In this document: positions 7,201 to 64,000 of the stretch, one piece after another
Layout: the number at the start of each line of letters is the position of its first letter
Numbering within the stretch: the stretch's first letter is position 1
NCBI RefSeq assembly: GCF_963576675.1
Contig: NC_088916.1
Coordinates: 18,204,501 to 18,268,500 of the forward strand
From: Euphorbia lathyris
Lineage: Eukaryota > Streptophyta > Magnoliopsida > Malpighiales > Euphorbiaceae
Length of the DNA stretch: 64,000 bases
Direction: 5' to 3'
Made by a program: the position numbers and the translations under genes
Notes under the pieces: model-generated
What the model saw: the letters and a program-made list of their open reading frames with translations, nothing else
What the model was told of the DNA's origin: nothing
Database searches by the model: none

Positions 7201-7224
7201 GGCTGCTGCCGTTTGGCAGCAGCC
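7201..7224. repeat. Perfect GC-rich hairpin in copia leader
   Basis: GGCTGCTGCC, a 4-base loop GTTT, then GGCAGCAGCC: a perfect 10-bp stem. It is the first of two adjacent hairpins in an otherwise AT-rich leader. Confidence 0.9.
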
Positions 7225-7227
7225 GCG

Positions 7228-7273
7228 CGACAGCGGCTGGTCGCGCCGTGAGGCGCGACCCGAGCCGCTGTCG
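7228..7273. repeat. Two-tier GC-rich hairpin in copia leader
   Basis: Outer arms CGACAGCGGCT (7228-7238) and AGCCGCTGTCG (7263-7273) are perfectly complementary. Inner arms GGTCGCGCC (7239-7247) and GGCGCGACC (7252-7260) are also perfect, around a GTGA loop. Only a 2-base bulge (7261-7262) separates the tiers, giving a 20-bp stem. In leader RNA this would be extremely stable. Confidence 0.9.
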
Positions 7274-19811: not shown

Positions 19812-20284
19812 ATGAGTCGAACATCCTTAAATTCGTGGGTGCAGGGAAGTCAAGAAGAATGGGCAGGACCTGTGAGATGCAATTGCGGATTCATTTCACC
19901 ACTACGAACAGCTAAGACGCCGGGGAACATGGGCAGGCGGTTTTTTGGTTGTGGGTGTTTTAAGGAGGTGAATGGCTGTAATTTCTTTGAATGAATTGAT
20001 GAATTGCCATGCAGGAGGGGAAAGATGGTGTTATTAGCATTGAAGGATGAGAGAAAGGTATTGCAATTGCTCAGAAAAGGATTGAAGAGTTGGAGGTGGA
20101 GTTGAGTTTGGCTAAAAAGATGGTGGCAGAAAAAGAAATCGTTGGGCAGAGTGAGAGGCAGGGAAGAAGATGGACATGGAACTGCTGTATAGGAAATGTA
20201 GTTTGCTTGGTTATTGTCATAATAGGGTTAGAGATGTATTGGTTGGATTTAGGGAACAATTATAGGAATTCTTTGGCACCTTGA
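19812..20284 (+). pseudogene. GRF-type zinc-finger membrane protein gene (broken), MULE accessory gene
   Basis: The 60-codon start encodes MSRTSLNSW and a GRF-type zinc finger (CNCG...TAKTPGNMGRRFFGCG...GCNFFE). The fold is that of nucleic-acid-binding GRF fingers in NEIL3 and topoisomerase III. A TGA follows NFFE where family members have Trp-Ile-Asp. A shifted frame from about 20090 continues with a Glu/Lys-rich coiled-coil segment and a hydrophobic helix (CCIGNVVCLVIVIIGLEMYW). The order finger, coiled coil, C-terminal membrane anchor is that of the small plant GRF proteins. A role in the element is inferred only from its position between the terminal repeats. Confidence 0.75.
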
Positions 20285-21000
20285 ATTGTTCTTGAATTGT
20301 TCTTGGATTTTTTGGTATGTATTTGGTATTCTGTGATACCAATTGGGCATGAAATTAGATTTTGTATGAAATGTTACTTAGTGTTATGAATTAGTATTGG
20401 AATTCTATGATATGAATTGCTTAAGTTTCATGTTTTTCTTGTTGACACAAAATGGGAATTGGTTAGAATTATGTAAAGGTATTGGGTAAACTGGAGTAGG
20501 TTATTTAGGTATGGATTAAGGTTGATATTGGCGACATTAGCAAGCATATTCATTATGTATTTGCAATGAAGCCTGTAATTGACAAAAAAATGGACACTTA
20601 CTTGACACACAACTGTATTGTAGAGACCTGTAATTGAAAAGAAATGGACACTTAATTGTAAGCTCTTGAAACTGTAATTGACACATAATTGTAAGCATTG
20701 TATAGACCTGTAATTTAATCCCAAAACATCGAAGATGCATTACAAAAGCAGTTAAGTCAACATCGTTCAATCGTCTTAACTAAACCTGTAATAACATACA
20801 CAAAAAACAGGGTACTTCATACCCGCTAGACACAGAAATTTTACTACAAAGCATCTAAAAACAGGGTACTTCAGACCCGATAGCCACATAAACAGAGTAC
20901 TGCTCTGGGTACTTCAGACCCACAAAAAAACATCTAACATGCTATAAGCATCCAAAAAAACATCTAATATGCTGTAAGCATCCAAAAAAAACATCTAATC
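20285..21000. repeat. Degenerate short repeats between the two MULE genes
   Basis: Repeated words include ACAGGGTACTTCAGACCC (near 20808, 20867, 20905), GACCTGTAATTG (near 20570-20710) and ATGCTGTAAGCATCCAAAAA (20940-20995). No coding content. It is probably the shared 3' untranslated/spacer region of the convergent genes. Confidence 0.6.
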
Positions 21001-21006
21001 CCAAGC

Positions 21007-24000
21007 TCATTTTTTCAGCCTCCGTAAGATATCTTCGAGTGTCGTCTTGCTTGCACTTGGAGGCTGTGAACTCGCCATAGTTTGGCGCTGTGAACTCGTC
21101 ATTGGTTGGGGCTGCGAACTTCAAACTGCAGGTATTCTTGCAGAGAGTGGAGTTGATGCTGGTTGTGGCTGTGATAATGGTGTTCTTACACGCCTACTTG
21201 GCAATGCAGATGATGAAGGCCGAGATGATGGTGCAGATGATGGTGCAGATGTACGAGCGTTCTTCTTTGGTCTTCCAGCCCGTCTAGGGGGTGAGGACTA
21301 TAAAAAAACATGAAAACTAAATCATTATGCACAAAAAATTAGATAATGTAAACAAATGACCATTTCTCATTAGATATAACCTTACCTGGACATTCAATTC
21401 TTTGTTTTTGGCTCTCCTCATCCTCCTTTGCCAGCCGGTTTCGCCTGTAACAGACGCGGTACAACCTCTAACATTATGCCCTTCTTTCTTGCAATTACCA
21501 CATACGAGAATTCCTCCTGCTCTTGTTACCTTGTATGGATTTCTCGGTTCATCGGACCGCCTAGTTCTTTTCTTCTTAGGCCTTCCTGCAGGTTTTTTCA
21601 CAACCCATGGGTGGATGTCTGGAAGATCTGTTTTCTCCCATTCCTCCTTGCTTGGTATTGGTGCCATTATATGACTGTATACACTTAAGTAAACAACTTT
21701 GGAGAAGTACTCATGCACATATGCCTCAGGCAGCTCCCTATTCTTGAAAATAGCGGATATTGCATGTTTGCAAGGGATACCACTTATATCCCACATCCTA
21801 CAGTTACATGTCCTATCTTGCAAATTAACAACGTTGGTGTAATCCCCACAATCAACAGAATAAAGCTTTTGCCCAGCGGGAGTCGCGATACAACCTCTAG
21901 CACTCAATTTGAGCTTCTCCAGCTTCTCTTGATAGTAAGGACAAATATCACCCCTATATTTCTTCATACCTTCAGTATTCACATGAATTCTCTTCATCAT
22001 TTTCTTCCTAATCCACTCAAAGCAACTAACCACAGGTTTATCCCTACTCTTCTTAATATAAGCATTGAAGCACTCACTCATATTGTTTTGCACAGCATCG
22101 GATTTTGTTTCAATAGAGAAATAGCACCTAGCTCATGTCTTGGGATCTTTCTCCATCACCCATGTCCATGCTGCTCCATCAAATGCCTTAAGCTTGTCCA
22201 TATAGTGTTCCCGCAGCCTAACAGTCCCAGCCTTAGCAGCATCCCACAACACCTTCTTGTACTCTAGTCCTTTGAATATGAGCTTCATGTTGTCATACAT
22301 GTGCTTCACACAGAACCTATGCTCTACCCCAGGAATCAACTTCTCCATAGCTTCAACCAAACCCTGTGCAAATACATAAACAATTATAAAAATCTATCCA
22401 ATTCCATAATAATTAGATCAAATTTAATAAGGAACAAAAGTATTGTTACCTTTTGCTTATCAGACATAAAAATCCACTTTGTTGCCCTGGGATTCCCAAA
22501 ATCATTGAATAGATTCTCCAAGAACCACTCCCATGATGCTTTGCATTCACTGTCTACCATTGCCATAGCCAATGGATACATTTGCTCGTTTCCATCTCTT
22601 GCCACGGCAGACAAAATCTGGCCACCTAATGGTGTTTTTAGAAAGCACCCATCAAGCCCTATTATTGGTCTCAAGCCAGACTGAAAACCTTCTAACTGTG
22701 CATTGAACCTCACATACATATATTGGAAAGTAACTATCTCTTTGGGTAGCCTTGTAAGCTCTCCTTCTCTAGGCACCTCAACCCTTTCCAACTCAAGCTC
22801 AGTTTTAAATCTGACTCTGCTACCGGGCATCTGTTTCTCTATTGTTGCACCATAATCAAACAATCTCCTGTATTGCTCCTTTGCAGCTCCATCAACCAAC
22901 TTCTTTGCAAGATTTCTTGCTCTGTAACACTTTGCTGCAGACACCTCAGATCCCAATTCCCTTTGGACCTTATTACCTAGCGCATCAACATCATAACTGG
23001 GATTGTCCCTCAAATCCTCTAGATATTTCTCTGCAATGTAAGAAGAACCTATAAGCCTGTTTCTGTTATCCCTAGGACACTGATGGACTGGCTGAAATGT
23101 CTTCACTTGAAATGTGTCATACTGACGTAGCTTAGAAGCATGCACTTTGAATCCACATTTATGCTTGCACCTAACTGTCACCTTCTGTTGATTGTTATTC
23201 ACGAAGATGTAGTCATAGCCATTATGAATAGACCAATCCTTCAGAGCCTTCCTAAACACACGCACATTAGTAAACCTCATACCTACACATAGTTCGGGAA
23301 TGGAAGAACCACTATTCTCATTGAAGTCCGTATAGTGTGGACCTTCATCATCAGAGCCCTTAAAACTACGCAACTCATCACTATCATATCCTCTCTCATT
23401 AAATTCGTCCATATCATTATCCTCCAAATCATTGCCACTTGCATATGTCCTTGGGATATCTCCAATCGGCTCTACTTCTTCCTCTAGTGATTCTGACTCA
23501 CTATCCTCCTCATTGCTACCACCATTTGGAACATAAGTACTGTCTTCAGAATCAGACCCCATGTCATCATTGTTAGGAGTGTGAACATCCTCATCCTCCG
23601 TATCACTGACATCACTGTCATCAGAATCAGGCCCTCCTTCATTAGTGTCATCACTGTCGTCATAAGCAGACCCTCCCTCATTAGTGTCAACATTGATACC
23701 AGTATCATCATTGGCACCCATTTCCTCCAAATTATCCATATTGGCACCCATATCCTCCAAATTATCCACATTGGCACCCATATCCTCCAAATTATCCACA
23801 TTGGCACCCATATCCTCCAAATTATCCTCATTGGCACCCATATCCTCCAAATTATCCACATTGGCACCCATATCCTCCAAATTATCCTCATTGGCACCCA
23901 TATCCTCCAAATTATCCTCATTGGCACCAATCTCAAAACTCCAAGCATTGGCACCAACCTCCACACTCCCCTCATTGGCACCAACCCCATCATTGGCACC

Positions 24001-24459
24001 AACCGCAACACTCTCATTACTGGCATCAACCTCAACATTCTCATCATTCGCACCAATATCAAAACTCCAATCATTCTCACCATTAGAGGAAGGGTAAACA
24101 TTTGTGCTTGGGATATCGTTTATGTCACACCTATTGTCATCAATCACTTGTAATGGCTTTATCTCCATGTAGTAAATGTCTATATGCGGATACCCTGCAT
24201 TAAAGTCAATGAAGTCTCGAACACTCTTATCGTTAACAATCTCCTCAATTCCTTCTGATCCAGATAACCCAGCGATCTTGTACCACATTTGTACTGAGTG
24301 TTTGTACCCTACATCCTTCCCAATATCCGCTAGCTCAAAGTAGCTCATGTAGTCAATATCCATTTTCACCATCCTCGTTTTACCTCCAACGTATAGTTGT
24401 TTGTCCATGTCTACCCATTTACCACCGTAATGAATAATCAACGTATGCATTGTAGCCAT
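21007..24459 (-). pseudogene. MuDR-type MULE transposase (broken by two stops)
   Basis: Three exons with good splice sites: 24459-22450, 22363-21386, 21297-21007. The N-terminus resembles a PB1-like domain, followed by an acidic repeat region (10-residue units) and a MuDR DNA-binding region (FRKALKDWSIHNGYDY). The DDE core follows, with first Asp in GLDGCFLK, second Asp in MSDKQKG (across the intron) and Glu in NNMSECFNAY. Then come a SWIM finger (CNCRMWDISGIPCKH), a basic AT-hook-like AGRPKKKR, a CCHC knuckle (CGNCKKEGHNVRGC) and a Ser/Pro-rich tail ending LEDILRRLKK. Lesions: TGA at 22133-22135, where the conserved Trp of KTWAR is expected, and TGA at 21121-21123 in the tail. Otherwise it looks intact, so inactivation was recent. 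Confidence 0.92.
23711..23920 (-). repeat. Seven 30-bp tandem repeats encoding an acidic decapeptide
   Basis: Seven exact-length 30-bp units (TTGGCACCCATATCCTCCAA plus a variable tail), with a degenerate eighth at 23921. On the minus strand each unit encodes NLEDMGANxD, in frame within the transposase. Variation is almost confined to one codon (Val/Glu/Met), which suggests recent expansion. Further degenerate ANxxSVEVGAN units lie upstream in the protein. Confidence 0.9.
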
Positions 24460-25190
24460 GATTGCTGTACATCAAACAAGTAATAGCATATCAACAATTT
24501 TCATTCACACTATTCATTCAACAATATTCATTCACATGACATCGAACTAATGACAGAACAAATCAACATGACATTGAACTAAAGTACAACTCTAAACTCA
24601 TATGCCATCGAAATAAAGACAGTCCAAATCAATAATATTCATTCACACCAACAACGTCTAAGTATAAACATTCATTTGTCCCATTATCATTGTACATCAT
24701 ATAAGAAATAGCATCAACTTAAAGACAACTCTGATCTCACGATCATTACAAAAACAACTCTGAACTAACAAGACATCAAATTAAAGGCAACCCAAATCAA
24801 CAAACGTCATTAACACTAACATGCAACCTTAACAACAACGACCACAAATTCGCAACATCGTACAAGAAAAATCGTATATACGAAATCCTATCGCAAAAAC
24901 CCTAACTAAAAGAAACAGAACGTAACGAAATCGAGATTAGAGGGCTGTGCGAACAGTGTGTGTACCTTGATTTCCAAGCTTTTACACCCTCAAATAGTGG
25001 TCTTCACCCTTACTTCTGCTCCTTCATACTTTCTTATGATTTTCCGTTTTCTTGGAAAATAGGTTGGAAACGAACCGTATGATGCAAGAGATGATGAATT
25101 TCAACTTTTCCCCTCCAAATTCCGACTTAAAGGTGAGGTTTTTCAGTGGTTTGTGGTGCCTGGTACTGTTGAAGTTCGAAGGTTGGAATA
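24460..25190 (-). promoter_or_regulatory. Transposase 5' region of the MULE
   Basis: An AT-rich 0.7 kb between the transposase ATG and the right terminal repeat. It should contain the promoter and 5' UTR, and the terminal repeat itself may contribute, as in MuDR. Repeated words such as TTCATTCACA and AACTCTGA are present. No clear TATA box could be assigned. Confidence 0.4.
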
Positions 25191-25510
25191 TGAAGAGGTG
25201 CGATATTGGGGTCTGTGTTTTTTGGGTTTATATATACAATATTTCATTTAATCCTTGTTTTTCCCCTGGTTAACATTTGGGTCAAAGTGCCACGTAAGCA
25301 TAAATGACGGAGTGAGTGAAAAAATCCGTTCTTTGCTAACGGCGTTTATCACAGACCTCCGTTTGTAAAAAAAAAACCACAGGTGCCAGTTCGCAAATCC
25401 GGTATACCACATGCATTTTTTTTTACTTATCCCTTTTTTTAATTGGATTAATTGCCCAATCGATCTATATATTCTAAGTTAATGTTAATTATTATTCTGG
25501 AATTAATTAG

Positions 25511-25745
25511 TTATCAAGCTCATGGGTTGAGAGCTTATGTGGAGGTTGTTCTCCTGGCCTGTTTCCTGCTTTTATCATCATACTTTTTTAATTAATTATT
25601 ATTATGTTCTTCAGATATCAGATTGAAAGATAATAATTAATTAAAAAACAGGTAGAGTTGTTCAAACACCCTCATCTGTTGCTTTTGCAATCCAAAAATT
25701 CCATCTTTAAGCTTCCTGGTGGCCGCATAACACCTGCCGAATCAG
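25511..25745 (+). pseudogene. CFIm25-like (NUDT21/CPSF5) exon fragments, 3' of MULE
   Basis: Exon 25511-25556 encodes YQAHGLRAYVEVVLL and joins in phase with the exon at 19359-19400. Exon 25652-25745 encodes VELFKHPHLLLLQ and SIFKLPGGRITPAES, the start of the plant CFIm25 Nudix fold with its GG turn. The donor of the first exon reads G|GC instead of GT, a weak GC-AG site or a decayed one. After 25745 a GT donor is present, but the next exon-like stretch (26184-26226, [14 protein letters not shown] then stop) does not match the family. The gene is therefore a truncated fragment. Confidence 0.8.
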
Positions 25746-26580
25746 GTATTTACTCTACCTACTATGCTACTTTCTTAATATTAATTAAGTAAATTATATA
25801 TATATTTATATATATATAATTTGTAATTAGAGTTAAAAGCTTATACAGTCACTCAGCTTTGTCTAATATTTTAATGGGCACTAAAACTTTGTACCAATAA
25901 AATAACTGAAGTTTTATTTTGTTTCAATGAAGTCACTTTAGGGATTTTTTTCCGCTATTTCAATTCCTGGGTGCTGACTAGGATGGTTTACGACAAAAAT
26001 GTAATGCCATGTTGGCATAATATTTCTGATAAATGGCATTGACATGGCGCTGTGTTTGTAGTGTGAACTATCTGACTTACCAGGTAATCACTTGAGTTTC
26101 TTTTCCAATTTATCTATGACTGACATTTGTTGCTTTTTTTCACCTATATATAATATATTTTGCTTCTGCATTTGATTTGTAGGAAAGTTTAAGCGACTTG
26201 GTATACCTGATGAAATGAGCGTATAATACTCATGTTAGCTGTGGATATGGTTTGCAGTGCTAGGAGTAAATACCTTGCTCAAGTATTCAACAATGAGAAC
26301 TACAAATTGAACCATCGAGTCTCTTTCTCCAAATACATGTTGATGAATGAAGAATGTTTTATTTATGTTTGTGATGCTTAGATACTTTTGAATTATAATG
26401 TTCGGTACTTTTGACGGACAATTTTTTTTTTGTACTTCATTCATCTTAGAATACGTTACGCCTAAAGTAATTTATGTGGCAACGTATTTACTTTTTTCCT
26501 CTTTACATAAACAAATGTTATGTTGCTTTGTATTTAAACGGTTGCCTTTTCGATTATTAAGTGTTGTTTTACAGATTTGA
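25746..26580. other. AT-rich sequence after the CFIm25-like fragment
   Basis: Contains a short TA run near 25798-25822 and intron-like texture. The exon-like 26184-26226 described with the neighbouring gene is the only coding-looking piece. Confidence 0.45.
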
Positions 26581-26998
26581 AATCGTTCCTTTGAAATCAA
26601 ACAATATTGTTTTTATGTTACAAAATATTGCATTTGTTAGTAGATAAGTGTTGCTACTAATAAAAAATGTTGCCTTTACAGTAAAATATCGTTGCTTTTG
26701 TAAAAGATAACGCTTTAGTAAAAAAAATGTTACATTTGCTAAAATCATTGCATTTGTAAAAAATAGAGTGTTGCTATAGGTCACTAAATGTTGCCTTTAC
26801 TGAAAGCAAACGTTGCTAAGGTATAAAAGTATTGTGTTGCTTATTGCTTAGAAAGTGTTGCATTTACTTTAAAAGTGTGTTGCATTTGTTTGAATATAAG
26901 TGTTGCATTCAACTACAAAATGTTGTCATTAGTTAACAAAAGCAACATATTGTTAGTATTAAACGTGTTGCTTTGTTGATGAAAAAATGTTACCTTTT
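26580..26998. repeat. Degenerate GTTGC-rich repeat tract
   Basis: The word GTTGC or its variants recurs every 20-35 bases, in contexts like TGTTGCATTTGTTWRWAWA. Units are too diverged for a sharp period. The tract abuts the truncated end of the copia fragment at 26990, so the truncation probably coincides with insertion or recombination here. Confidence 0.65.
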
Positions 26999-28402
26999 AT
27001 TGTAAGCAATTTTATTTATGGATAAAGTTTTTCTAACAGTTGGAAAGTTAGCATGTCCAAGACGAGCATGCCACAATGGTAAAGAAATATTAAATGCTTG
27101 TGCATGATGCAGAGCTCTTGGTGGAAGGGACAAAGTGTAACGGCTATTGCTAATTGTGCCTCGATGAATTTCCTTCTGTGTCTTCAAATCCTTCAAAATA
27201 AAATAGTTAGCAAAAAACTCAACAGATATAGGATTTGAACGAGTTAAAGAAGAAACAGATAAGAGATTGTGCACTGTATTCGAAACACAAAGGACATCTT
27301 GAAATTTGAGAGGAGAATTAGAAACAGTGAACTTAGAAGTACCAACATGAGATATGGGGATTGTGTAACCATTAGCTACAGTAACTTCCTCTGGTCTGTC
27401 ATATTCACTGTGAACATGGAGATTTTCAAGATCAGCAGTTAGATGGTGAGTAGCTCCTGAATCAACAAGCCAGTCCGTTTTGGTTGGGGTTGATGTTGCA
27501 GCAAGATTGCAAGAAGGCTTAAGATTGTTGCGAGTGTTCCGGTTAAATTTAGGAGAGGGACATTGTCGAGATATATGACCTGCTCCCCTACAATTGTGAC
27601 AAGTCACGGTAGCTATATCCAAGGGTGCAGATACTGTCTGAGGTGACCGAGCGGATGTGCCAGAATAATTGCCTCACCCACGTCCATGACCACGCATAGA
27701 ACCTCTAGCAGAGTAGTTTACAGTAGGTGAAAAAGAGAGAGGAACATTTTCACGAGCCAATTGTCGCTCTTCGTTGAGTAGTAATCCAACAAGGTCATCA
27801 TAATAAATAGTTTCCAAACATGCTTCTAATGCACGAACAAAAGGTCTATACGCAGGCCCTAGGCCATTGAGCACAGCTTTAACCAAGTGTTCATCAGAGA
27901 TCGGGTGACAGAGAGCAGCAAGTTCATCGCTGATATGCTTAGCATTCTGGAGATAAGAAGAGATACTGTCATTCTCTCTTCTAAGATTATGAAGCTGGTA
28001 TTTCAGATCTCGTATTTGAGACCGGGAGCCAACCGAGTAGGCTTTGACAAGTTTTTGATAGGCATCACAAGCAGTTTTAGCACCAACTAATTGAGGTAAT
28101 ACACCCACAAATACAGATGAGATTATCGAGCTGAGAACCAACTGATCTTTTTGATACCAATCTTTGTAATCGGGATTATGGGCACCGCCAACAAGTGTTG
28201 CAGATGGTGAAGGAATGGTGGAATCGATATGATCAGTGAGATTGTGGCCATGGAGAATAGGCATAATTTGAGTTTTCCATAGCACAAAATTTGTTGGAAT
28301 CAATTTTAGGGATAGCTGATGAGATAAATTGACGGAAGGAGCAGCAGAAATAATGGTGGAGGCGAAGCTTGAGTTGGCAGCAGTGGTACCGTTGGTTGCC
28401 AT
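26990..28402 (-). pseudogene. Truncated copia element: gag, zinc knuckle, protease
   Basis: ATG at 28402 (MATNGTTAANSS) opens a gag with the common copia signature LIPTNFVLWKTQIMPILHGH, a helical capsid and a Gly/Arg tail. A stop separates it from the next frame at 27622, which has a CCHC knuckle (CHNCRGAGHISRQC), an aspartic protease (DSGATHHLT) and the start of the pre-integrase region (LWHARLGHANF). The sequence ends abruptly at about 26990, so integrase core, RT and RNase H are missing. Confidence 0.88.
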
Positions 28403-34004: not shown

Positions 34005-37000
34005 GGGTGAGATCCAGTGTGACAAGGAGTTAGGATTGTGACAATGAGCTTATTGTGTGACATAACAAAACTACGTAGTTTTCATGATAATTGAAAAAGG
34101 CAATGTGGCAAATTTGTAAATAAAAGGAAAGTGAGGATAGAGAAAATTGTTTTATTTCTTTTCTTTAAAATACATTTTCCCGACATTTCTAACCTCGTTT
34201 TTCGAAAAGTTTTATACTATTAGACTCGTCTAAATTAGACGGTCATTTTAAGATCCATGAAGCTCAACTAAAAAAAATTCCGGTGAACGGAATCCGGGTG
34301 GGCGTTTTCTTGCGAAAAAAAAGTGTCCAGAAAATTTGCAAACAGTTGCAGAAAATGTAAAACATTATTCTGAGAAACTTTAATTCTTGGAACGATGCGA
34401 GATTTCTTACGGTTTAGTCCCAATAAAACTTGTTCCTTAATTTTATCCATTTTACATGCTTCAACAATTTGTAGAGTCAAAACCGTAAGGAATCTCATTT
34501 TGCGCCAAGAATTAAAGTTTCTTAAAATCATGTTTTACATGTTTTGAAATTTTTTGATAATTTTCTGGGCACATTTTTTTGTTATACTTACGTTGTTCCG
34601 ACAGCGTACGAAATTGTTCCAAATCAGTGTATCATTTGTTCCAACATAATACTTATATTGTTCCAACAAAATAAATCAGCGTACCATTTTTTCTAACAAA
34701 ATAGTTCTATTATTCCAGCATAATACATATATTGTTCCAACATAATATAAATCACTTTAACAATTGTTCCAAATCAATTTTATTATCTATATCTTCGATT
34801 TCATTTTTGTTTCTTAGTATTTAATATAATATCTTCAAATTTATATTAGTTATATTATTTAGAAAATAATTCTAATTTTTATATTCTTCCAACAGAATAA
34901 TTATATTATTCCAACAGAATAGTCATATTGTTTCAACAGAATACTTATATTGTTCCAACAAAATATTGCAACACATAGTGCTGAAAGGTAAGACCAAAAA
35001 GTGCCCAGAAAATTATCAAAAAATTCTGAAATATGTAAAACATCATTTTAAGAAACTTTAATTCTTGGCTCAAAATGAGATTTCTTACGGTTTTGATCCA
35101 ATAAATTGTTGAAACATGTAAAATGGATAAAATTAAGGAAATTGTTTTATTGGGACTAAGCCGTAAGAAATCCTACTTCGACCCAAGAATTAAAGTTTCT
35201 TAAAATAATATTTTACATTTTTTAGAATTTGTTGAGAATTTACTGGGAACTTTGTGTTTTGTCGCCGGAAAACGCTCACCTGATCGCCGTAAGGAATCTC
35301 ACTTTGAGTGAAGAATTAAAGTTTCTCAAAAAAATGTTTTACATTTTTTGGAATTTTTTGAAAATTTTCTGGGCATTTTTTTCTCATAGAAAAACAAATC
35401 GCCAGATTCTATTCACCAGAATTTTTTTACTTGAGCTTCTGGGATCTTAAAATGACCGGCTAATTAAGACGTGTCCAACGGTATAAAAGTTTTTGAAAAA
35501 CGAGGTTGGAAAAGTCGGGAAAATTAATTTTAAAGAAAAGAAATAAAACAATTTTCTCTTTCATTTTATTTACAAATTTGCTACATTCTCCTAGTTAATT
35601 ACAAAATTGGTCCTTGTCACACAATAAGGCTCGTCACACCATAAGAGATGTGTCACACATGATCTCTCCTATATATATATATATATATATATATAGGAGA
35701 GATCATGTGTGACACATTTCTTATAGTGTGACGAGCCTTATTGTGTGACAAGGACCAATTTTATAATTAACCAAAAGAAGGTAGCAAATTTGTAAATAAA
35801 AGAAAAGAGAAAATTGTTTTATTTTTTTTCTTTAAAATGCATTTTCCCGACTTTTCCAACCTCCTTTTTCAAAAAAATTTATACTGTTGGACTCGTCTTA
35901 ACTAAACGGTCATTTTAAGATCCATGAAGCTGAAGTAAAAAAAATTCCGGTGAACGAAATCCGGGTGGGCGTTTTCCGGCAAACAAAAAAGTGTCCAGAA
36001 AATTCTCAAAAAATTCCAGAAAATGTAAAACATTATTCTAAGAAACTTTAATTCTTGGGTCGAAGCAATATTTCTTACGGTTTAGTCCCAATAAAACTTT
36101 TTCCTTAATTTTATCCATTTTACATGCTTCAAAAATTTATTGGGTAAAAACTGTAAGTAATCTCGCTTTAAGACAAGAATTAAAGTTTCTTAAAATAATG
36201 TTTTACATGTTTTGGAATTTTTTGATAATTTTCTGAACACGTTTTTTGTCCTACTTACGTTGTTCCAAATCAATGTACCATTTGTTCCAACATAATAATT
36301 ATATTGTTCCAACAGAAAATTGTTTTATTTCTTTTATTTAAAATACATTTTTCTGACATTTATAACCTCGTTTTTTGAAAAATTTGATACTATTAGACTC
36401 GTCTAAATTAGACAGTCATTTTAAGATCCCTGAAGCTCAAGTAAAAAAAATTCCGGTGAACGAAATCCGAGTTGGCGTTTTCTGGCAAGGAAAAAAGTGC
36501 CCTGAAAATTCTAAAAAAATTCCAAAAAACGTAAAACATTATTCTAAGAAACTTTAATACTTGGGTCGAAGCGGGATTTCTTACGGTTTAGTCCCAATAA
36601 AATTTGTTCCTTAATTTTATCCATTTTACACGCTTCAACAATTTATTGGGTCAAAACTGTAAGGAATTTCGGTTTGAGCCAAGAATTAAAGTTTCTTAAA
36701 ATGATAGTTTACATATTTTCGAATTTTTTGATAATTTTTTGGGTACGTTTTTTTTCCTACTTACATTGTTCCAAATCAGTGTACCATTTGTTCCAAATCA
36801 GTGTACCATTTGTTCCAACATAATACTTGTATTGTTCCAACAGAAAAATGTTTTATTTCTTTTCTTTAAAATATATTTTTCTGACATTTCTAACTTTGTT
36901 TTTCGAAAAATTTTATACTATTAGACGTCTAAATTAGACGGTCATTTTAAGATCCCTGAAGTTCAAGTAAAAAAAATTCCGGTGAACGGAATCCGGGTGG

Positions 37001-54741: not shown

Positions 54742-56731
54742 TCAAACACAACTTTAGTCAGTTTTCAATTATATTATAACATGTAATTGTAAATGAAGAG
54801 TAAAACTAATAATTTATAAAGATTTGAATTAAATTGAAATACTTGAGGAAATATGACTTAGGATGAAATAAAATACTATAAATATTTGAATTGAAATACT
54901 TAGCAATATATAATAGACTTAATACACAAATAACCTCCTGAACTTGTCCAAATGTTGCAACTGCCCCTCCAACTTTCAATTGTAATAACTTACCCCTTAA
55001 ACTTGTCCAATTGTAAAACACGACCCTAAATTTGGAATTTTTTTACCCGTACTTGAAGCAACCGTAAAAACGTTTTTCCGGATTCGTATCACGCCAAAGA
55101 TCTGATTATCATACTCCACGAGTGTTGCAGCTTTTGTATTTCACATGTTGCTTCAATTGCAGTCCATGTCAGCAATTTGGGGTTATGTTTTACAATTGGA
55201 CAAGTTTGAGGGGTTATGTTTTACAATTGGATAAGTTTGAAGGGTAAGTTATTACAATTGAAAGTTCGGGGAGGCAGTTACAATATTTGGACAAGTCCAA
55301 GGAGTTATTTATGTATTAGACCTATATAATATGAAAAACTTAATGAAATAAATTTTATTAATTACCCCAAATCAGTAATTGCTATGAACCTGTTAATATA
55401 AATTATGATTCCTATTAAAAAAACCTCAAATTAGTTATTGCTAAAAAAACCCTAAATTAGTAATTGCTATATTTAAAAGATTTCTCACCAAATAGCAATA
55501 AAAAAAACAAAATCACAGCAGCACAAGAACACAATAATTCTAATAGAGTAATTCCGTTATTTAACATTCAAAATAAATAAATGAGAAAATTACATGATAA
55601 TTCAAGTTTGAATATTATTTTACAGTTATGTAAAGTGTTTTTGGTTTTTTGTCAATAAACACAAGAAATTCATACTCTTATCAAATAATCAACTTTTTAT
55701 TTTGCTTTTGTTAAAAAAAAACAGTTGAGATTAAAATACAGGAAATGTATACTTTTGAGAGATCTGACAAACTAAAAATTAGTTTTACAAATTGTTGAAA
55801 CTTGTATTTATTTATTAAAAAGTGATTATTGTGTAACTATCCATAAATAAATAGGTTAAGAGATTTCTTACCAAATCGAAGAAAAACCCAAATCACACCA
55901 GCAGGACAAAAGAACACAAACAAGCAGAGAAGGAGGAAGAAAAACGGAGAGAAAAGCTAGAGAAAACAACTCGGAGTCGGAGAAGGAGGAATAAAATAGA
56001 GAGAGTGAGAAAATTGCACAGCCCGTAAAAGTAAAAGAAGCCTAAAAGAATGGTAAATTTGTAAGAGCATCTTTAGTGGTAGATTATAAAGTTTGTAACA
56101 AATTATGTGTCATGTAGGATTAGTAAGAAACTAATATGACATACCATTAGGATGAGTTGTTACTTTAAAATTTAGTGGGGTTAAAGAAATAATATTAATA
56201 AAACCTGCTGCTGTGATTTTATTTGGTATTTCTTAAATTCTTGGACACTGGGGAGACACCCCACAAAACAGTGTCCAGGGCAAGCCCTGCCACAGACTAT
56301 CTTAATACGATGACGAACAACTATTAATTTTTTTTGGACAAAATTATGATTAGCTGTTTTGTTAATATGTAAAATTATTAACATAACATACTTTAAATTA
56401 ATTAAAAAATAAATATGTAAGTATAATTTCAAAATTAATAAAGAAATCTAATAATTGTTAAAACAAGAAGCCTATAATTTGCACAATAGCACAAAAATTA
56501 TTGAAATTGATTGTTTCTTGATAAAATAATCACTTGAATCTTTCATAAAAATTTGAACATTGAGTCAATATAGTCGAACTCGAAAATTGACTAAAGAATC
56601 AGTCGAAACTTGTTTGCTAAAACTTAGCTGATTGTTAATAGCTGTTTAGGTAAATGACAAATAAGGATATAATAAATCATTTATTTGGGGTTAAAGAGTA
56701 ATAATTAAGGGTAAAAATGTCCTTAAAAAAG
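54742..56731. repeat. Dispersed repeat, copy 2 (paralogue of 29352-30850)
   Basis: Collinear with copy 1 from CAACTTTAGTCAGTTTTCAA to the GGGTAAAAATGTCCTTAAAAAAG before the MULE end at 56732. It is interrupted by a MITE (54915-55322) absent from copy 1. It has an uninterrupted GATTTCTTACCAAATCG where copy 1 carries its SINE. A 55920-56000 stretch rich in GGAGAGAAAAGC-type purines resembles a 5' UTR, but no gene follows. Confidence 0.8.
54915..55322. mobile_element. MITE with ~115-bp terminal inverted repeats
   Basis: Left arm AATACACAAATAACCTCCTGA... pairs with right arm ...GGAGTTATTTATGTATT, with shared inner blocks AACTTGTCCAATTGTAAAAC and AACTTTCAATTGTAATAACTT. A TATAAT-type duplication flanks it, and the paralogous copy near 29565 has a single TATAAT and no element. 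Its long inverted repeats and size fit a MULE-derived MITE. Confidence 0.85.
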
Positions 56732-56876
56732 TGGGCGACTATATACCGCCCTTAAATTCTGGTTCACCGCCCTGTATTGACCCTTTTGCCCTTCTCATTA
56801 TTTCAAACATAAGTTTTGAAAATTCCAAATCCTCTCAACTTATTTTCCATTCTCAAAAAAACCGACCTAAAACGAG

Positions 56877-59510
56877 ATGGCACGAAGAGGAGGCATCGGC
56901 AAAGGATACATGGGTATTACGGTAAGTATTTCCATAAAAAAATGTAACGAATTCGTGAGAAATCGGGCTGAAAATCGGGATTAAAATCCCAGAATTTCAG
57001 CTAGGCGGGCGACCCGCACCATCTCCACCTACGGTGGAACGCATGAACTATGCGTTCCACCGTAGGTGGAGATGGTGCGGGACGAGCGATCCACCATATG
57101 GTGGATCGCACGGCGCACGCGCTCCACCGTAAGGTGGAACGCGCGGCGCATGCGCTCCACCATGCGGTGGATCGCTCGTCGTACGCGTTCCACCTAAGGT
57201 GGAACGCGTACAAGACGTGCGCTCCACCTTATGGTGGAGCGCATGCGCCACCCGTTTGGCCTAAGGGCCAAACGTTTGCGGCGCACTGGTCGGCCCTAAG
57301 GCCGACTGGTGCGCCGCACCCGTTTGGACCATAGGGCAAGTGGTGTAAGCCACCCGCCCAGGCCAAAAAGGGGCAAATTTTGATTTTTTTTTTTAAAAAT
57401 TGTACGGACCGGGCGTAGGTAGACCCGAACATATATAAAAAAAATTATGTTAAATTGAATATACTAAATAAATAATATTACAGGATCAGGAGGGATCTGA
57501 CCCTAGACGCACGTCTTCACGTCCTGTTACTGCATCTGCTCGGCGGGACCGGGCGGAGCAGCAGCGGTTCATGGCGGACGTCCGGAGGGCACATGCTGCA
57601 CAGGCGGAGCGTGCTGAGGGACAGGATGAGGCGGCTGATATAGACATGGACGGGGATGCTTCTATGCATCGTCCTAGTGCTAATACTATCCCCATAGATC
57701 GTGACGAGGGGTCGAGACGGACGATTTTCTTCTACCGCAACATCTTCTTCTGGTAAGAGAAATTTAAAAATGTGTTTATTTGTATTTGTGTTAATCGTGA
57801 TTATTGAAAAATATACCAAAAATATAATGTGAACCGTTTGCTGTAATTTCAGGTAGCAGCAAGCGATCGAGGGGTGTAGAGGATGACTGGGTTGTGAAGG
57901 ACCCCGTCCCCGGGGGTCCATTTGATGGTGCTGTGATCCCGAGCTTTTTGGGACATATTGCATGTGCTATCTGGGCCGGTCAGGATAGGGGCGTCCTTAG
58001 GTGTCATACCAGATCAGTGTATTGCTCGAAGCTGAGATTGTGGTACAGTGGTTCTTCAAGGACGATTCAGTCGCGTATCGAGTCATCTGGCATGTTCCAT
58101 TTACCTGGTATTATGCACAGTCACATAGATGCTGCTCTGATCACGGCATTTGTAGAGCGGTGGCAGCCAGACACGTCATCATTTCACATGCCATTTGGCG
58201 AGATGACCATTTTGATGCATGATGTGTGGGAGATATTGCGCATCCCCGTAGATGGTGCCATGGTGACTGCTGATGCGACTGTTGATGAGCTTAAGGAGTG
58301 CGTGATGGATTTGTTTGGGATGACTCGGGTTCAGTTAGATGCTCGTCATTATGCTTCTGGTGGTATACGAGCCGCTTCCGTCATGGAGCACTATGGAGGT
58401 GATCGGATTCCTGAGACCCAGGCTATAGCTTGGACGTGGCTGATGCTCGGTTCCACCTTGTTCGTAGACAAGAGTGGTGACCGCATCCGACCTTCTTGTC
58501 TGTTAGAGGTGCAGGACTCGGCGGCTGGAGCCGTTGGACTTTCTTGGGGATCAGCTGCACTAGCATATCTATACCGTCATCTTGGTATTGCTACCAGAGG
58601 AGATTGCGGGCAGATGATGGGTTGTATGAAATTGCTCCAGTCTTGGATTTACGAGTATTTTCCTTGCTTCAGGCCACATCGAGAGGCAGTTACAGTTGAC
58701 CCGGATCTTCCTAGGGCTTCATTGTGGCCATCTATATCGATGGAGAAGAGCGATGAGCGGCTGAGAGCATTTCGTGCCCGGCTTGATGTGTTGACAGCAG
58801 ATGAGGTATACTTGCTATATAATTATAAATACTTGTATGTGTTAATGTAATTTTATACATCTGTAGGTCATGTGGATGCCGTATGGCCCTGATGCCATTA
58901 CTGAGACCCCGAGGACTCTATATTCTGGATGGATACGTTATCGGGATATGATCGAGCCGTACATGCCGGGGTGATGCCTTCGAGAGCTTGGACATGTGCA
59001 GACCATTCCTAGACCGATATTGCAGCCTTCTAAGGTTGTTCGCCCGTGGACCAGTTTGAAGTATCGTGTAGAGGTGCCAGCTGTGATGGTGCAGGGTATT
59101 TGGGACTCTTTTCCCCAGTCGTCCGTCCTTATACTGTCTGTATTCACTCCAACACATACTCCATCAGATTGTGAGGATCAGTACATGCATTGGTACACCC
59201 GTCACTCACACCCTCGTCTACTTCCGGAGATTGTTGCACCCGGACCGACTGTTTATACTCGCTCGAACAGTGAGATTGTAAGTTATTTTTTGTTTTTCTT
59301 TACTGGTCTAGTAATGTGAAATGATATTTACTGAAATGTGAAGTGATATTAACCTTGTTTTTTGTTCCTTACTTTTTACAGTGGGTTAGTCGATTATCTG
59401 GCTGGGGTGAAACTGTGTTGGATCACATGAGTCAGCTGGACGAGGATGCTGCGATTGTATATAGGCAGTCGTTAGAGCAGATTATGGGTGCTTGGCATTT
59501 GGCCAAGTGA
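56877..59510 (+). pseudogene. Plant mobile domain (PMD/MAIN-like) gene, one premature stop
   Basis: Five exons with consistent phase: 56877-56921, 57484-57752, 57857-58805, 58867-59277, 59382-59510. Exon 1 encodes MARRGGIGKGYMGIT and exon 2 a charged Ala/Arg-rich linker. Exons 3-4 encode the PMD fold, with FHLPGIMHSHIDAALITAFVE, RWQPDTSSFHMPFGEMTIL and WTWLMLGSTLFVDKSGDRI. Exon 5 ends HLAK then TGA. PMD proteins include host MAIN/MAIL factors in silencing and meristem maintenance, and many transposon-borne copies. One lesion: TGA at 58972-58974, where CGA (Arg) is expected after YMPG. The exon 3 acceptor was chosen at 57856 to keep the frame. Intron 1 holds the palindrome array. Confidence 0.88.
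57001..57362 (+). repeat. Palindrome array A in PMD intron 1
   Basis: Consecutive inverted repeats. 57013-57044/57050-57081: 32-bp perfect stem, 5-base loop. 57086-57109: 24-base perfect palindrome. 57118-57142 and 57153-57176: stems of 10-11 bp, each with one mismatch. 57181-57211: 14-bp perfect stem. 57218-57243: 11-bp perfect stem. 57253-57274: 9-bp perfect stem. 57278-57117-type outer arms at 57278-57295/57300-57317: 18-bp stem with two mismatches. Most share the core TCCACC...GGTGGA. The GC content is far above the surroundings. Hypothetical ORFs across it are by-products of the repeats. Confidence 0.92.
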
Positions 59511-59737
59511 GTTATGACTGTATTTTGAAGTATTTTAGTACTGTTTTGACTGAATTTGGTGGATTGATATTTTAGTACTATTATGACAGAATTTGGTTTT
59601 TTTTGTGGTACGTTTTGTTATTATTGCAAATTTAAGAATACATTAGAACGACATAAACGGCATAAACTGAAAAAATACATTACAACGACATAAACTGAAA
59701 AAATACATTACAACGACATAAACAGAAAAAAAAGACA
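59511..59737. other. Convergent 3' spacer
   Basis: Short spacer between the PMD stop and the end of the unknown ORF on the other strand. It contains a direct repeat of AAAAATACATTACAACGACATAAAC (near 59672 and 59698). Confidence 0.7.
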
Positions 59738-60487
59738 TTAGTCACTATCTTCTTCGTACTCGTCAATGTTTGGTGAAGATGTCGCTGGTACACCTGACTG
59801 TATTGCAAGGTATATCTCTTTCTCCTCTGCAATATTCGTCTCATATTCCACAGGAAAAATGTTCCATGGAGCATTTCCTCTATTTCTTGGCCAAGCTCGT
59901 CCTGGCAGGTAATCGTTCTTTGAAGCGCTGATACTCTGTAGTACTCGAACCTCTAATTTATAGCGATCCCAATTTTTCACGATCGAGTAAGGATAAGTTC
60001 GATGAAGCTCATGAGAAATTTCAGACTCTGTCCATCTTAAAAAGATGATGGAGTTGAATTTTTTTTTAGGGATAATTCCCCTCTGATTATCACGCAGTAG
60101 TCTGGCGAACATAGCTTTCCAGTCATCAATAGGCATAAACCACTTCAGAAATGTTTGAATATGACTAGGAATATTTCCTTCATTCAAAGTGTTCAACCAT
60201 TCCTCTAGAGCAAATTCAAAAGGCATGTAATACATATAACATAAGAACCATAGCATGTGTAGTGAGTATATTGGAAACTCACCAGCAGACGGAAGCTTGA
60301 AGCAAAACATAAATGGAGTTTCAGGATGGAACATTGTTGGACTCACAAATGTCTCTCCATATACACGGATTGCGTAGTATTGGTAATCAAGCATCTTCGT
60401 CGTGCAATCAGACTTATTCAAAGTTGATACTATGCTTTTCTCGGGAGGAAAATTAGGGAACTCATTGGTAAAATCAGATGAAGCCAT
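59738..60487 (-). CDS. Unrecognised 249-residue protein encoded by the MULE
   Basis: Uninterrupted ORF from ATG at 60487, no introns evident. It is rich in aromatic residues and Pro (for example FPIYSLHMLWFLCYMYYMPF), has a WDRYKLEVRVLQS segment, a basic patch (LPGRAWPRNRG) and an acidic tail ending DEYEEDSD. I see no catalytic triad, zinc finger or signal peptide. The hydrophobic stretch could be buried rather than membrane-spanning. It is the only gene in this element without a lesion. Its place between the PMD and transposase genes suggests a transposon accessory protein, which is inference only. Confidence 0.6.
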   Translation of the reverse strand: MASSDFTNEFPNFPPEKSIVSTLNKSDCTTKMLDYQYYAIRVYGETFVSPTMFHPETPFMFCFKLPSAGEFPIYSLHMLWFLCYMYYMPFEFALEEWLNTLNEGNIPSHIQTFLKWFMPIDDWKAMFARLLRDNQRGIIPKKKFNSIIFLRWTESEISHELHRTYPYSIVKNWDRYKLEVRVLQSISASKNDYLPGRAWPRNRGNAPWNIFPVEYETNIAEEKEIYLAIQSGVPATSSPNIDEYEEDSD

Positions 60488-60644
60488 TTATGTTTGAGAG
60501 TTTTCGTTGAAATGAATTTAAAGAGTAAATGTGGATAACTGAAGTAGAAAGATTGTTTAATTTTATAGATGGAGAATATAGCCGTTGGAATATAGCTGTT
60601 GGAATACCACATGTTCGAATATATTAATCAAAATTGATCAGAAT

Positions 60645-60960
60645 TGATCAGAATTCACCTGTAACATTACAGAACCATACAGAATTCACCTGTAACATTA
60701 TAGAACCATACAGAATTCATCAGAATTCACCTGTAACATTACAGAACCATACAGAATTCACCTGTAACATTACAGAACCATACAGAATTCATCAGAATTC
60801 ACCTGTAACATTACAGAACCATACAGAATTCACCTGTAACATTATAGAACCATACAGAATTCATCAGAATTCACCTGTAACATTACAGAACCATACATAA
60901 TTCATCAGAATTCACCTGTAACATTACAGAACCACACATAATTAATCAGAATTCAACCTA
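60645..60960. repeat. Minisatellite with 72-bp higher-order unit
   Basis: CAGAATTCACCTGTAACATT is repeated about nine times, in alternating 31-bp and 41-bp spacings that make a 72-bp unit. Because 72 is a multiple of three, a spurious 88-codon ORF runs through it on the plus strand. It lies 5' of the unknown ORF and 3' of the OTU domain. Confidence 0.9.
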
Positions 60961-60992
60961 TAACATTACAGAACCACACACAATATCAAATA

Positions 60993-63773
60993 CTAATATC
61001 CCCTAAGTTGGGCCAATCTGGTCCACTGTGTCACCCTATCCTGATAGAAGCGCTCCCATCCTACAACGCTTTGGCCTCGGTGCACAAACCACCAGTGTAC
61101 TATAGGGGGCACCGGAAAGTTAGGCGATAAATTTAAACGTATGTAGTGCTGGCAGTGATTCCCTAAATGAGCTATACAAATCTCACGTGATGGTCTTGTA
61201 GAAGTGGATGCGGCATACAATGGTAAGATAGTACCACACAATGCTAATGTGTCCCCACCTGAGAAGCCAAATAACATGATAGCAGAATTGTACATTGTAG
61301 CAACCGGCCACAAGTCATCCCAAACGATCATCCAATAATCTGGCGTACAACCTGCACCGTCCCAACTTACTCTACGAAGAGCTGCATCAACAGTATCAAC
61401 AAACACTCTTTGATACAGACAACGGTTAGCAATTACTTCATTTCGAATGTGATGCCTAACTGTCTGCCATGCTTCTTCGTCACCAAAAATGTAAGTTGCT
61501 ACCGTACGAAAACCACAATTTCCATCACCTACAACGTCGTAGTATGATTCGACGTATGGTTTAATTATGGCAACTATTTTATCGGAATGTACGAATTCAG
61601 AACCATAATACGTTTTTCCATCTGCATTCATGTATATTGGTGTAAAACAACTCTATATTGCAAAACAGTTATAAAAAAAAGTTAGGTTTATCAGATAAAC
61701 ATTACCTGATGAGGCAGCATTATGTACCGAGGATGACGAGCTAATTCTGCCACTTCTACCACGACTCCTAGATGAACTAGTAGAACGAGCCCATCCACGA
61801 CGAGTTTCATTGTATTCCCAAGAACTCGGCATACGTTTTGTGGATTTGCTCACCTTAGGTCATCCCCGCACGTTAATTTTGACATCGGGTTCGGTGTACT
61901 GAGCTTGATCAGGGTGTAGTTGATCATGGATAAACATTGAAATATTACGCATTACGGATGGGTTGGCTTTAGAGACTTGGTCCACTAAGGACTTAAAATA
62001 TCGCTGCTCCTCGTTCAAATCATTACGCCCGTCATTTTCATCAGTGTCACCATGATTGATTAAAAGTGTTCTCCAAAACACGTGAACACTCTCAGAACTG
62101 ATCATTTGTTCCAGATCACAAGCTCGTTTCAGCTCACATGCACATGGTATCTGATGCGATGTTCTCAATACACAACCGCAACGCACGTACACTTCATGGC
62201 TCAACCCTCTCATACGCTCTAACTCTTGATTCAACAACTGCAGACAATAATGAGAGACTTTGAATACAAGTTGGCTTAATGGGCGTCCGGCGAAAGTGAC
62301 TGCTTGACGAAGCCGGGACTGTTCAAGCATGTACCTGATACGAAGACAAAATTATTATTACTTAGTGAAATGATACAACCATAAATGCAAATTCCAAAAT
62401 CGCAGTAGAAGAAATTGGAAATACCTTATATTGGTTGCTTGTGATTCAATCTGCTTGTGAACCTTCTGCCATACCGTGTCAAGGGACCCAGTTGCCGTAT
62501 TGAGCCATTGCTTTAGACTAGCATGTTCGCTCTCCACTCGACAAGTAGTTGTGTTGCCAAAATGTAGGAACTCCTTTTTCCAAGCAACAACAAACTTCTC
62601 CTTATGCACCAACCACGTCTCCTCAACATATGAGATAACTCCTTTGAACCTGCTCATCTTTTCCTTCATCATCATAAGATTGGTCTCGTACTCCTCAATG
62701 GTTAATGATTCTAATATTGTTCTCCATTTGCCATTCTTGAATTTAGAGGCAAGGCCTTTATCTCCAATGATTCTATACACACGATCTTCCACATCCTTAT
62801 TTATATGCCAAGTGCATAGCAAGTGCGCTGCTTGTGGAAAAACTTCTTGTATCGGCTTAAATAACCCAAGCTCCCTGTCACTAACAACAACGGTCGGGTT
62901 CAGATCATCCCCAAGCAAAATCTTCAGCCTTTGCAAAATCCAACGGTAGCTCCCTTCAGTCTCGTCTTTAACAATAGCATACGCTATCTTGAAGTTATTA
63001 TTGCATGGTGTCATCCCAATAATCTCAACAAACGAAATTTTGTACTTGTTTGTTTTGTACGTTGAATCAATGCCGATGTACCAGTGGTAAGTCCTGAACA
63101 TATCAACTGACTCTGGATGTGCCATGAACACATGCGTTATCACACCTGAATCAGCCTGTGTGTAATTGACATATTTGTTCTCCACAGCAATATGGTAGAA
63201 TTGACTAGCCAGGTCTCTACCTTCAAACGCGTCCCTCCTCATTTTGTCCCTGTAATTATATATGTGTTTAATTACTGAGTTGTCCTCTGGGTGTTTTTCT
63301 TTAACTGATGCTAAAATAGCACAAGGCTTTGCTTGAGCTGAAGTCATATCACGCACAATTTGTTTAGATGCGATACTGAGTCCGCTCATTTGCCGACTTC
63401 CCTCTGGATACATACGCATTGTATGGTTATGCATTCCAGTTAACCCAGCCTTAGCCTTTATCCCCCATCCCGAAAGGTCTGCATGTTGATAGGCTTTAAT
63501 CTGAAATTTGCAGCGGCACGCTTTAGTTTTACTTTTCCTAATTGCAGGATCTTCATCATTTTTCACAACACCTCTATATCGTTCACCCCGTGAACAGCGC
63601 AACAACTTCTGTTTTTCCCCATTTTTATGCGAAGATATTACAATCTCAAACCCATTCTGAATAGCTATCTTTTTTGCCCAATCAATAGCATCCTGACCGG
63701 AGGGGAAAACGGTATCCGTTATGAAACGCGAACTATAATCAATGTTATCGGGGTTCCAATCTTCTATCGGTAC
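60993..63773 (-). pseudogene. MULE transposase fused to OTU cysteine protease
   Basis: Exons 63773-62425, 62334-61706 and 61621-60993 join in phase, and a further 5' exon is outside the window. Exon 1 here has a FAR1/MULE N-terminal DNA-binding region (FPSGQDAIDWAKKIAIQNGF and Cys/His ligands ending in HNH). The DDE core has GIDSTYKTNKYK, VVVSDRELGL and RVESEHASLK, with CTWHINKDVEDR between them. Exon 2 has a SWIM-like CGCVLRTSHQIPCACEL and a Ser/Arg-rich basic linker. Exon 3 is an OTU domain with Cys box VGDGNCGFRTVA and His region near CQHYIRLNL. OTU proteases cleave ubiquitin or related linkages. One lesion: TGA between NVRG and PKVSKSTKR (about 61857), where Arg is expected. Confidence 0.9.
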
Positions 63774-64000
63774 CTGAATATACGAAAAATTGACATTAAA
63801 ATTACAAAAAAATACTTCGGGGCTATTTCTCCCGTTCGAAATTAATTCGGGGCAATTTCTGCCCATTTTGGCCTGAACGGGCAGCGCGTACTGCCCGTTC
63901 CAATGGAACGGGTAGTTCATCCGTTCGGCCTAAGGAACGGGTGGTAATCGCAACCCGCCCAGGTCAAAACCAAAATAATAATAAAAAAAAAACCTAAATA
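63774..64000 (-). other. Transposase 5' intron (partial)
   Basis: Non-coding sequence upstream of the transposase exon, ending in a TTCAG acceptor at 63774-63778. It includes palindrome array B. The donor and preceding exon are beyond the window edge. Confidence 0.65.
63864..63970 (-). repeat. Palindrome array B in transposase intron
   Basis: GAACGGGCAG (63875-63884) pairs perfectly with CTGCCCGTTC (63891-63900). The same CCCGTTCC segment (63894-63901) also pairs perfectly with GGAACGGG (63905-63912), so the two hairpins are mutually exclusive. CCGTTC/GAACGG and GGGT/ACCC pairs follow to 63959. The whole is enclosed by TTTTGGCCTGAACGGGCAGC and its imperfect complement at 63946-63970. On the gene strand it aligns with array A. 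Confidence 0.88.

Follow-up and report, generated by a model that had tools for sequence, protein, structure and literature searches.

The window analysed here is a stretch of 64,000 nucleotides from Euphorbia lathyris (contig NC_088916.1, positions 18,204,501 to 18,268,500), the right-hand end of which is occupied by a Mutator-like element (MULE) of the MuDR type. The element carries two convergent genes, one with a plant mobile domain (PMD, PF10536) on the plus strand and one with a MULE transposase domain (PF10551) on the minus strand, and an array of hairpins lies in the first intron of the PMD gene (Table 1). Exon 2 of this gene starts at 57484 and is in frame with exon 1 across GTAAGT...CAG; the exon/intron structure was derived throughout from reading frame and splice sites in genomic DNA. 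The terminal inverted repeat (TIR) was read by eye and matches the left end, GTGGGCGACTATATACCGCCCTTAAATTC..., to the reverse complement of the right end, GGGTATTGCTAAATACCGCCCTTAAATTC.... Nineteen other fetched copies start at window positions 56725-56734, except for one piece of locus L010 that starts from 56710, and 16 aligned right ends stop at 64193-64215. Target duplications of 9 bp are exact in L016 (TTATAAATA) and L026 (AAAGTGGTT), and 8-9-bp near-matches are found in several other copies, not in every row. The transposase domain, the TIRs and the target duplications of about 9 bp identify the element as a MULE, and the presence of a PMD gene on the opposite strand as one of the MuDR type. 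Viral contigs were searched for relatives of the transposase and none was confirmed. Among the best protein hits beyond the genus are PMD proteins of Mercurialis, Orobanche, Spinacia and Chenopodium.

The array in the PMD gene consists of nine hairpin units. The segment 57001-57372 has a folding energy of -298.7 kcal/mol on the plus strand (z -23.7) and -301.5 kcal/mol on the minus strand (z -24.6), and none of 100 dinucleotide shuffles folded equally well on either strand. All five lowest-energy windows among the 1065 windows of 120 nt in the 64 kb belong to the array. The motif CGNTCCACC is present 13 times in the whole stretch, 12 of these in the array, and on average 0.49 times in shuffled sequences. 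The consensus has 7+7 occurrences of the core TCCACC/GGTGGA, with two core palindromes in unit 1 and none beyond the first six hairpins; the last three have GGCC-type cores instead. The initial annotation of this DNA had described about eight palindromes in a transposon intron, with a common TCCACC/GGTGGA core and a first hairpin that has a perfect 32-bp stem and a 5-base loop. The location, the intron and the first hairpin were borne out by the analysis, but the number of units is nine, counting a degenerate last one, and the common core does not extend to the final three. An Rfam scan of the window at the gathering threshold gave no match to a described structured RNA.

Table 1. Features of the MuDR-like element and its two hairpin arrays (window coordinates)
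Feature	Position	Strand	Remarks
Mutator-like element, ~7.5 kb	56731-64000		right end ~200 bp outside the window, near 64206
Left TIR, ~70 bp	56731-56800	+	partner outside the window; read by eye
PMD gene, exon 1	56877-56921	+	MARRGGIGKGYMGIT; from frame and 5' splice site; counterparts in other families
PMD gene, intron 1 (predicted)	56922-57483	+	GTAAGT...CAG, phase 0
Left hairpin array	57001-57362		nine units, GC 0.64
Unit 1	57013-57081	+	32-bp arms, 32/32 positions complementary; loop GAACT at 57045-57049
Unit 2	57086-57109		GCGATCCACCATATGGTGGATCGC
Unit 3	57113-57149		around TCCACC-GTAA-GGTGGA
Unit 4	57152-57175		around TCCACC-ATGC-GGTGGA
Unit 5	57181-57211		15-bp arms
Unit 6	57216-57247		around TCCACC-TTAT-GGTGGA; one pair A-U, G-U or G-C among copies
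Unit 7	57253-57274		CGTTTGGCC...GGCCAAACG
Unit 8	57278-57317		GCGGCGCACTGGTCGGCC plus its complement
Unit 9	57322-57345		degenerate in the window copy
Open stretch with plant mobile domain (PF10536)	57828-58850	+	E 3.7e-41
MULE transposase exon (PF10551)	62358-63773	-	E 1.9e-23; 3' splice site before VPIEDWNPDN
Transposase gene, intron 1 (predicted)	63774-64000	-	continues to 64025, outside the window
Right hairpin array	63860-63975	-	z -5.4; shortened by deletion, GAACT kept, its 3' arm lost
Transposase gene, exon 1	64026-64067	-	MDQSIPEDNEFEHE; followed by intron 63774-64025, then VPIEDWNPDN

The convergent transposase gene, at the opposite end of the element, has a second array in its intron 1. 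This array and the recurrence of the GAACT loop, described below, are new findings that go beyond the initial annotation. The right array stretch is 184 nt long in the window copy, whereas its length is 259-338 nt in the 16 further right ends that were read, and a 34-bp unit in it varies in copy number between copies. The outermost right hairpin, complete in 16 of 17 right ends, has its GAACT loop in the sense direction of the transposase gene, so that the GAACT hairpins of the two ends form an inverted pair and face one another. Each array is positioned about 230-270 bp inside its terminus. A direct-repeat reading of the two arrays, both of which have CCTGGGCGGGT on the minus strand, was replaced by the inverted one because the GAACT hairpin is on the terminal side of both.

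Copies of the element were searched for in this single genome (1.02 Gb in 33 contigs). The query 56640-57400 gave 1719 first-look candidates, of which 40 were scored; besides the window, these comprise 39 places on ten contigs, with identities of 94-99%. The array is thus not an assembly artefact of the contig, a possibility raised earlier. An inserted foldback element or a miniature inverted-repeat transposable element (MITE) is also ruled out, because the array is situated between in-frame exons and in the homologous place in the aligned copies of clade A. The window copy (L001) and seven near-identical loci (L002-L008) are found on the contig labelled C7 at 17.97-18.77 Mb and 23.52 Mb. All eight have flanking DNA in common from at least window position 56000, and therefore look like segmental duplicates and not separate insertions. 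Locus L010:546-10000 is a copy whose left end is duplicated; its right end is adjoined by a second copy, which begins inside intron 1 and bears a swapped hairpin tip.

Similar arrays are found in other families of elements. A protein search using a relative that is 62% identical to the PMD stretch of the window resulted in 5286 first-look candidates, of which 74 were scored. In five of ten loci from this search (L033-L037, of which L034 is clade A) the PMD stretch is preceded by an array, and of ten further places nine have one, truncated in L050. The PMD regions of L033, L035, L036 and L037 are 65-75% identical to that of the window in nucleotide sequence, and the arrays of these relatives are of different sequence but at the same place. 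The stems are of the GGCAAAATCC type in L035 and L037, form a long fold-back in L033 and are of a CCTCACG type in the element neighbouring L031, where the array lies 3' of the PMD relative. That neighbour contains two similar hairpin arrays in its apparent intron 1 (L031:3165-3640). The z-scores are -23.2 for L036, -22.2 for L033, -10.4 for L031 and -8.0 for L035. Counterparts of PMD exon 1 precede the arrays in clade B (MPPKPGVGKGFMKSP, L049), clade C (MPPKPGAGKGFMNAP, L051), L035 (MAGRGGRGKGLFSPS) and the element adjoining L031 (MDRGRGGKGKALM); in L033 neither a clear first exon nor a clear splice site was identified. At the places predicted for the right ends of L033, L035, L037 and L036 (L040-L043), a search for the transposase was negative. 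The sole right array to come from the search of predicted places is L044 (z -13.0), the right end of L038, in which the counterpart of transposase exon 1 is MDPSILEDHDFVHE. A second, different transposase-like stretch is present in the window itself at 21317-24471 on the minus strand, with a coding 30-bp tandem repeat (23709-23928). It has no strong array nearby, as none of the 12 lowest-energy windows falls within 20000-27000.

The hairpin with the GAACT loop is found on the terminal side of left arrays in clades A, B and C and of right arrays in clades A and C, with four clearly different stems. The fetched loci contain 60 such hairpins at 59 places (L001 and L009 are one place); a 61st, in L038, was set aside as an AT-rich chance match. 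There are 29 distinct hairpins, including that chance match, and seven representatives were used to compare pairing. Each of the seven forms 26-30 of 30 pairs with itself, whereas arms taken from left and right groups form 15-22 and arms from A-left and B/C-left hairpins 20-26. The 5' arms of left and right hairpins have only 13-18 of 30 letters in common, and those of the closely related B and C left hairpins are identical at 26-29 of 30. In both genes the sense strand of the loop is GAACU, and in the representatives a U-A or C-G pair closes it. GAACT is found in nine of ten clade-B arrays. It also occupies a local sense-strand hairpin loop in a fourth family, L035 and L037, and in the whole-array fold does so in L037 only; a given pentamer is expected by chance about once per four stretches like these. 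Another hairpin that recurs is CTCCGAATCGGAG, which has longer variable arms and precedes the one with the GAACT loop in clades B and C (L049, L051, L052, L036 and relatives), and tips resembling it are present in L033 and L039.

Pairing was studied in an alignment of 31 clade-A left arrays, called A1, which excludes L001 (the same place as L009), L045 (an extra unit), L047 (tip lost), L039 (a short array) and the longer reading of L010. Standard pairs fill 99.0% of the 4429 cells compared to 98.1% (sd 0.1) after shuffling, a value reached by none of 500 shuffles, and partners slid out of register pair in 28-43% of cells. Both sides have changed in 8 of 143 pairs (2.5, sd 1.2, in shuffles) and in 29 cells (2.9 in shuffles), and the covariation score is 0.043 compared to 0.028, with no shuffle of 500 reaching any of the three; the relatedness of the copies inflates these counts, and the structure tested was derived from the same rows. 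The number of further pair types was reached by two of 500 shuffles. Unit 1 provides the clear cases of paired change, namely C-G to G-C in L016, L017 and L019, and C-G to A-U together with A-U to U-A in L027 and L034. In clade B (10 rows, excluding L050, L051, L052 and L054), 12 pairs have at least two Watson-Crick types. Paired columns vary less than unpaired ones in both clades (0.039 vs 0.079 in A, 0.086 vs 0.254 in B). In eight out of eight clade-A comparisons the array is closer to the window copy (identity 0.917-0.981) than the 5' flank of the intron (0.846-0.923). The proposal that pairing is conserved while sequence varies is thus supported between lineages, as seen in the paired changes of A1 and in the GAACT hairpins.

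The manner in which the arms have changed gives some clues to how they stay matched. If one arm at a time had changed under selection, transitions through G-U should dominate, and the pair 219/246 looks this way (A-U in 12 copies, G-U in 11, G-C in 8). The clear paired changes of unit 1 are double transversions. Furthermore, in L010:7641-8004 the hairpin tip is replaced by a stretch running from the outer 3' arm of unit 1 to the start of unit 2, in L047 and L054 the tip has been lost with the hairpin still matched, and in L045 unit 5 is duplicated. Because of these events and the double transversions, the pattern indicates that the arms have probably been re-matched by fold-back templating or by switching between the repeated cores. 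Such templating, in which the template switches between arms or between repeated cores, would copy an alteration of one arm into the other, and could likewise swap, delete and duplicate units. The initial annotation had offered palindrome-making events or selection on structure as explanations, and both have evidence in their favor: the double transversions and core-to-core tip changes fit template switching, and the presence of arrays at the corresponding position of other families, together with the GAACT loop, fits retention of the structure.

The reading that we prefer, although we rate it slightly below an even chance, is that the paired intron-1 arrays persist as a cis-acting platform near both gene starts, with their arms re-matched by fold-back templating. 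Hairpins in these positions would help the element in cis. The platform, read as DNA or as nascent RNA, would most likely be recognised by a protein encoded by the element, and recognition would influence how the two genes are expressed or silenced, or how the two ends are handled. Retention is favored because the position of the arrays is the same in the two genes and across several families, because the loop recurs and because paired columns vary less. The main rival, next in rank after such a platform, is that palindromes arose in introns near the ends and have since been matched, multiplied and moved by template switching only, with no benefit to the element and in introns that tolerate them. 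This is somewhat unlikely in our estimation. The double transversions in unit 1, the L010 tip swap, the L047 and L054 tip losses, the L045 unit duplication, the changing copy number of the 34-bp right unit and the pair-breaking changes private to single copies all speak for neutral self-maintenance. It accounts less well for arrays with other stem sequences in the same intron of both genes and in several families, for a GAACT loop kept between left and right hairpins with such dissimilar 5' arms, for paired columns that are two to three times less variable than unpaired ones, and for the missing array at the other MULE-like stretch of the window.

A number of observations weigh against the cis platform, in addition to the inflation of the covariation counts mentioned above. 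Templating by itself is able to maintain matched arms, so covariation is no proof of selection. Of the seven outermost pairs of unit 1, three do not form in L046 and L048; the paired changes found there may thus be due to chance. The pair 98/167 is broken in six of the 31 copies. Private changes at paired columns, counted in 27 rows (without L001 and L010:7641-8004), number 56, of which 26 break the pair, 22 give G-T and 8 give a Watson-Crick pair; of 18 shared changes 8 break the pair, 5 give G-T and 5 Watson-Crick. Many of the private and shared stem changes are C to T or G to A. The decay of stems that had been proposed as evidence against conserved structure is thus seen only in part, namely in single copies; across A1, 1.0% of cells are unpaired compared to 1.9% after shuffling. 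The identity of the array is about that of the 3' intron flank and below that of exon 2 in seven of eight clade-A comparisons. A stronger constraint on the core than on the rest of the stems was considered and is not clear, as 16 of 79 core-hexamer columns are variable compared to 40 of 145 other stem columns (L010:7641-8004 again left out). The GAACT stems form four groups and not five, because the B and C left hairpins are close relatives. The loop is not universal: the remaining clade-B array, L058, has GAACA, L031 and L039 lack GAACT, and in L033 it is in a stem. Nor is GAACT the most frequent loop pentamer in the scan (GCGCC is found 86 times and CTGAT 76 times), and in B and C left arrays another hairpin sits nearer the end. 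Finally, by the threshold used, L029-L032 and L038, five of the first ten loci, have no array upstream of their own PMD stretch, and L053 has none among the ten further places.

The arrays might instead work as RNA, the intronic hairpins of the pre-mRNA being cut into small RNAs, blocking RNA-dependent polymerases or controlling the splicing of intron 1. The position of the arrays in presumed transcribed introns agrees with this, as does GAACU in the sense strand of both genes with its U-A or C-G closing pair. However, Rfam has no match in the window, and a wobble bias in the sense strand is not clear: single-sided states are G-T or A-C in 35 and 24 cases in clade A, and in 25 and 22 in clade B, with structures chosen in a way that favors G-T. 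Because single-sided changes have no clear excess of G-T over A-C, of the kind that selection on a sense RNA should produce, they neither favor nor exclude an RNA role, which we regard as very improbable overall.

A more specific form of the platform would be a structure-defined cis module, in which the matched pair of intronic arrays, including the GAACT-loop hairpin, is recognised by its shape and loop by an element-encoded protein. We hold this to be unlikely. If true, the stems would be free to change their sequence and so escape homology-based silencing, while the recognised structure is kept. The ends of IS200/IS605 elements and integron attC sites, which are folded DNA hairpins with variable stems recognised by shape, offer an analogy only, as they differ from the present arrays in their enzymes and in their single-stranded chemistry. 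The host PMD proteins MAIN and MAIL1 have been linked to the promoter motif DOWN in the available part of one report (PMC7156037), and a DNA-linked role of the PMD is conceivable.

Besides its two main genes, the element has a third open frame of 249 aa (59738-60487, minus strand), which is a candidate partner for the arrays; a Pfam scan of it gave no matches. The stretch 60993-61652 on the minus strand weakly resembles OTU-type cysteine proteases, with a viral RNA polymerase entry as the best PDB chain (E 0.0068), followed by OTU domain protein 5 (E 0.013) and Pfam Otubain (E 0.26). A 72-bp tandem repeat lies between the convergent genes at 60639-60984 and is far longer in some copies, such as L015 and L026. 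Elsewhere in the window, a GC-rich pair of short hairpins (GGCTGCTGCCGTTTGGCAGCAGCC and GGTCGCGCCGTGAGGCGCGACC) is found near a (TA)n tract at 7141-7260, and a similar (TA)n-flanked pair is present on another contig (L043:1620-1740). At 35594-35771 there is a MITE-like inverted repeat, AT-rich, the 89-nt arms of which flank a (TA)n center.

The known systems that are closest to these arrays suggest yet another explanation, in which the palindromes are two-fold sites in duplex DNA for a dimeric element-encoded protein, like VANC targets or TNPA sites. The repeated core is dense, with a variable center of 3-4 nt, lies in introns near both gene starts, and differs between families while being common to units; in clades A-C the two-fold palindrome is often CGTTCCRCC/GGYGGAACG. 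The target motifs of VANC21, as far as the accessible text of two reports describes them, are fast-diverging tandem repeats in introns and upstream regions of Arabidopsis VANDAL elements, another MULE group (PMC5735166, PMC10398659). In both cases dense, family-specific arrays of short motifs are situated in introns and other noncoding parts, and their units change together. However, the VANC21 motif, YAGTATTAY, is repeated in one orientation, whereas the present units are GC-rich inverted repeats with paired changes, and the string 'palindrom' does not occur in the main texts of the two reports. Furthermore, such sites would need neither 30-bp stems nor a hairpin loop, unit 1 has its paired changes outside the core, and the core is not clearly more constrained. 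We consider duplex binding distinctly unlikely for these arrays.

The subterminal repeats of CACTA elements (En/Spm, Tgm), as described in the accessible parts of PMC2613891 and PMC8978399, are direct and inverted and are recognised by the element protein TNPA. Like the arrays, they extend over several hundred bases inside both ends and diverge between families. The present element, however, has a MULE transposase and TIR, its ends read GTGGGC... and GGGTATT..., and its arrays are long hairpins in the introns of both genes. With the MUDR clade, the elements of which mostly carry the PMD gene in antisense, judging from the accessible part of PMC6446971, it has in common the TIRs, the 9-bp duplications and the transposase and PMD genes on opposite strands; the hairpins described there are fold-backs of TIR transcripts only and not intronic arrays. 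A literature search limited to titles and the starts of abstracts, with most subscription journals outside it, did not bring intronic hairpin arrays in MULEs to notice, and the accessible parts of the reports on VANDAL, CACTA and MUDR elements describe none. The arrays offer many natural replicates for two questions, namely how palindromes are kept matched in chromosomes and whether a recognised structure can be retained by a transposon while the sequence targeted by homology-based silencing is altered. With at least 40 places scored in each of two families, both questions are open to computation and simple reporter assays. Element-specific repeat arrays near the ends of plant DNA transposons are thus already known, but as linear motifs, whereas in the present case the shape of the hairpins endures as their sequence turns over, and this is so for both main genes of one element and for several families in a single genome.

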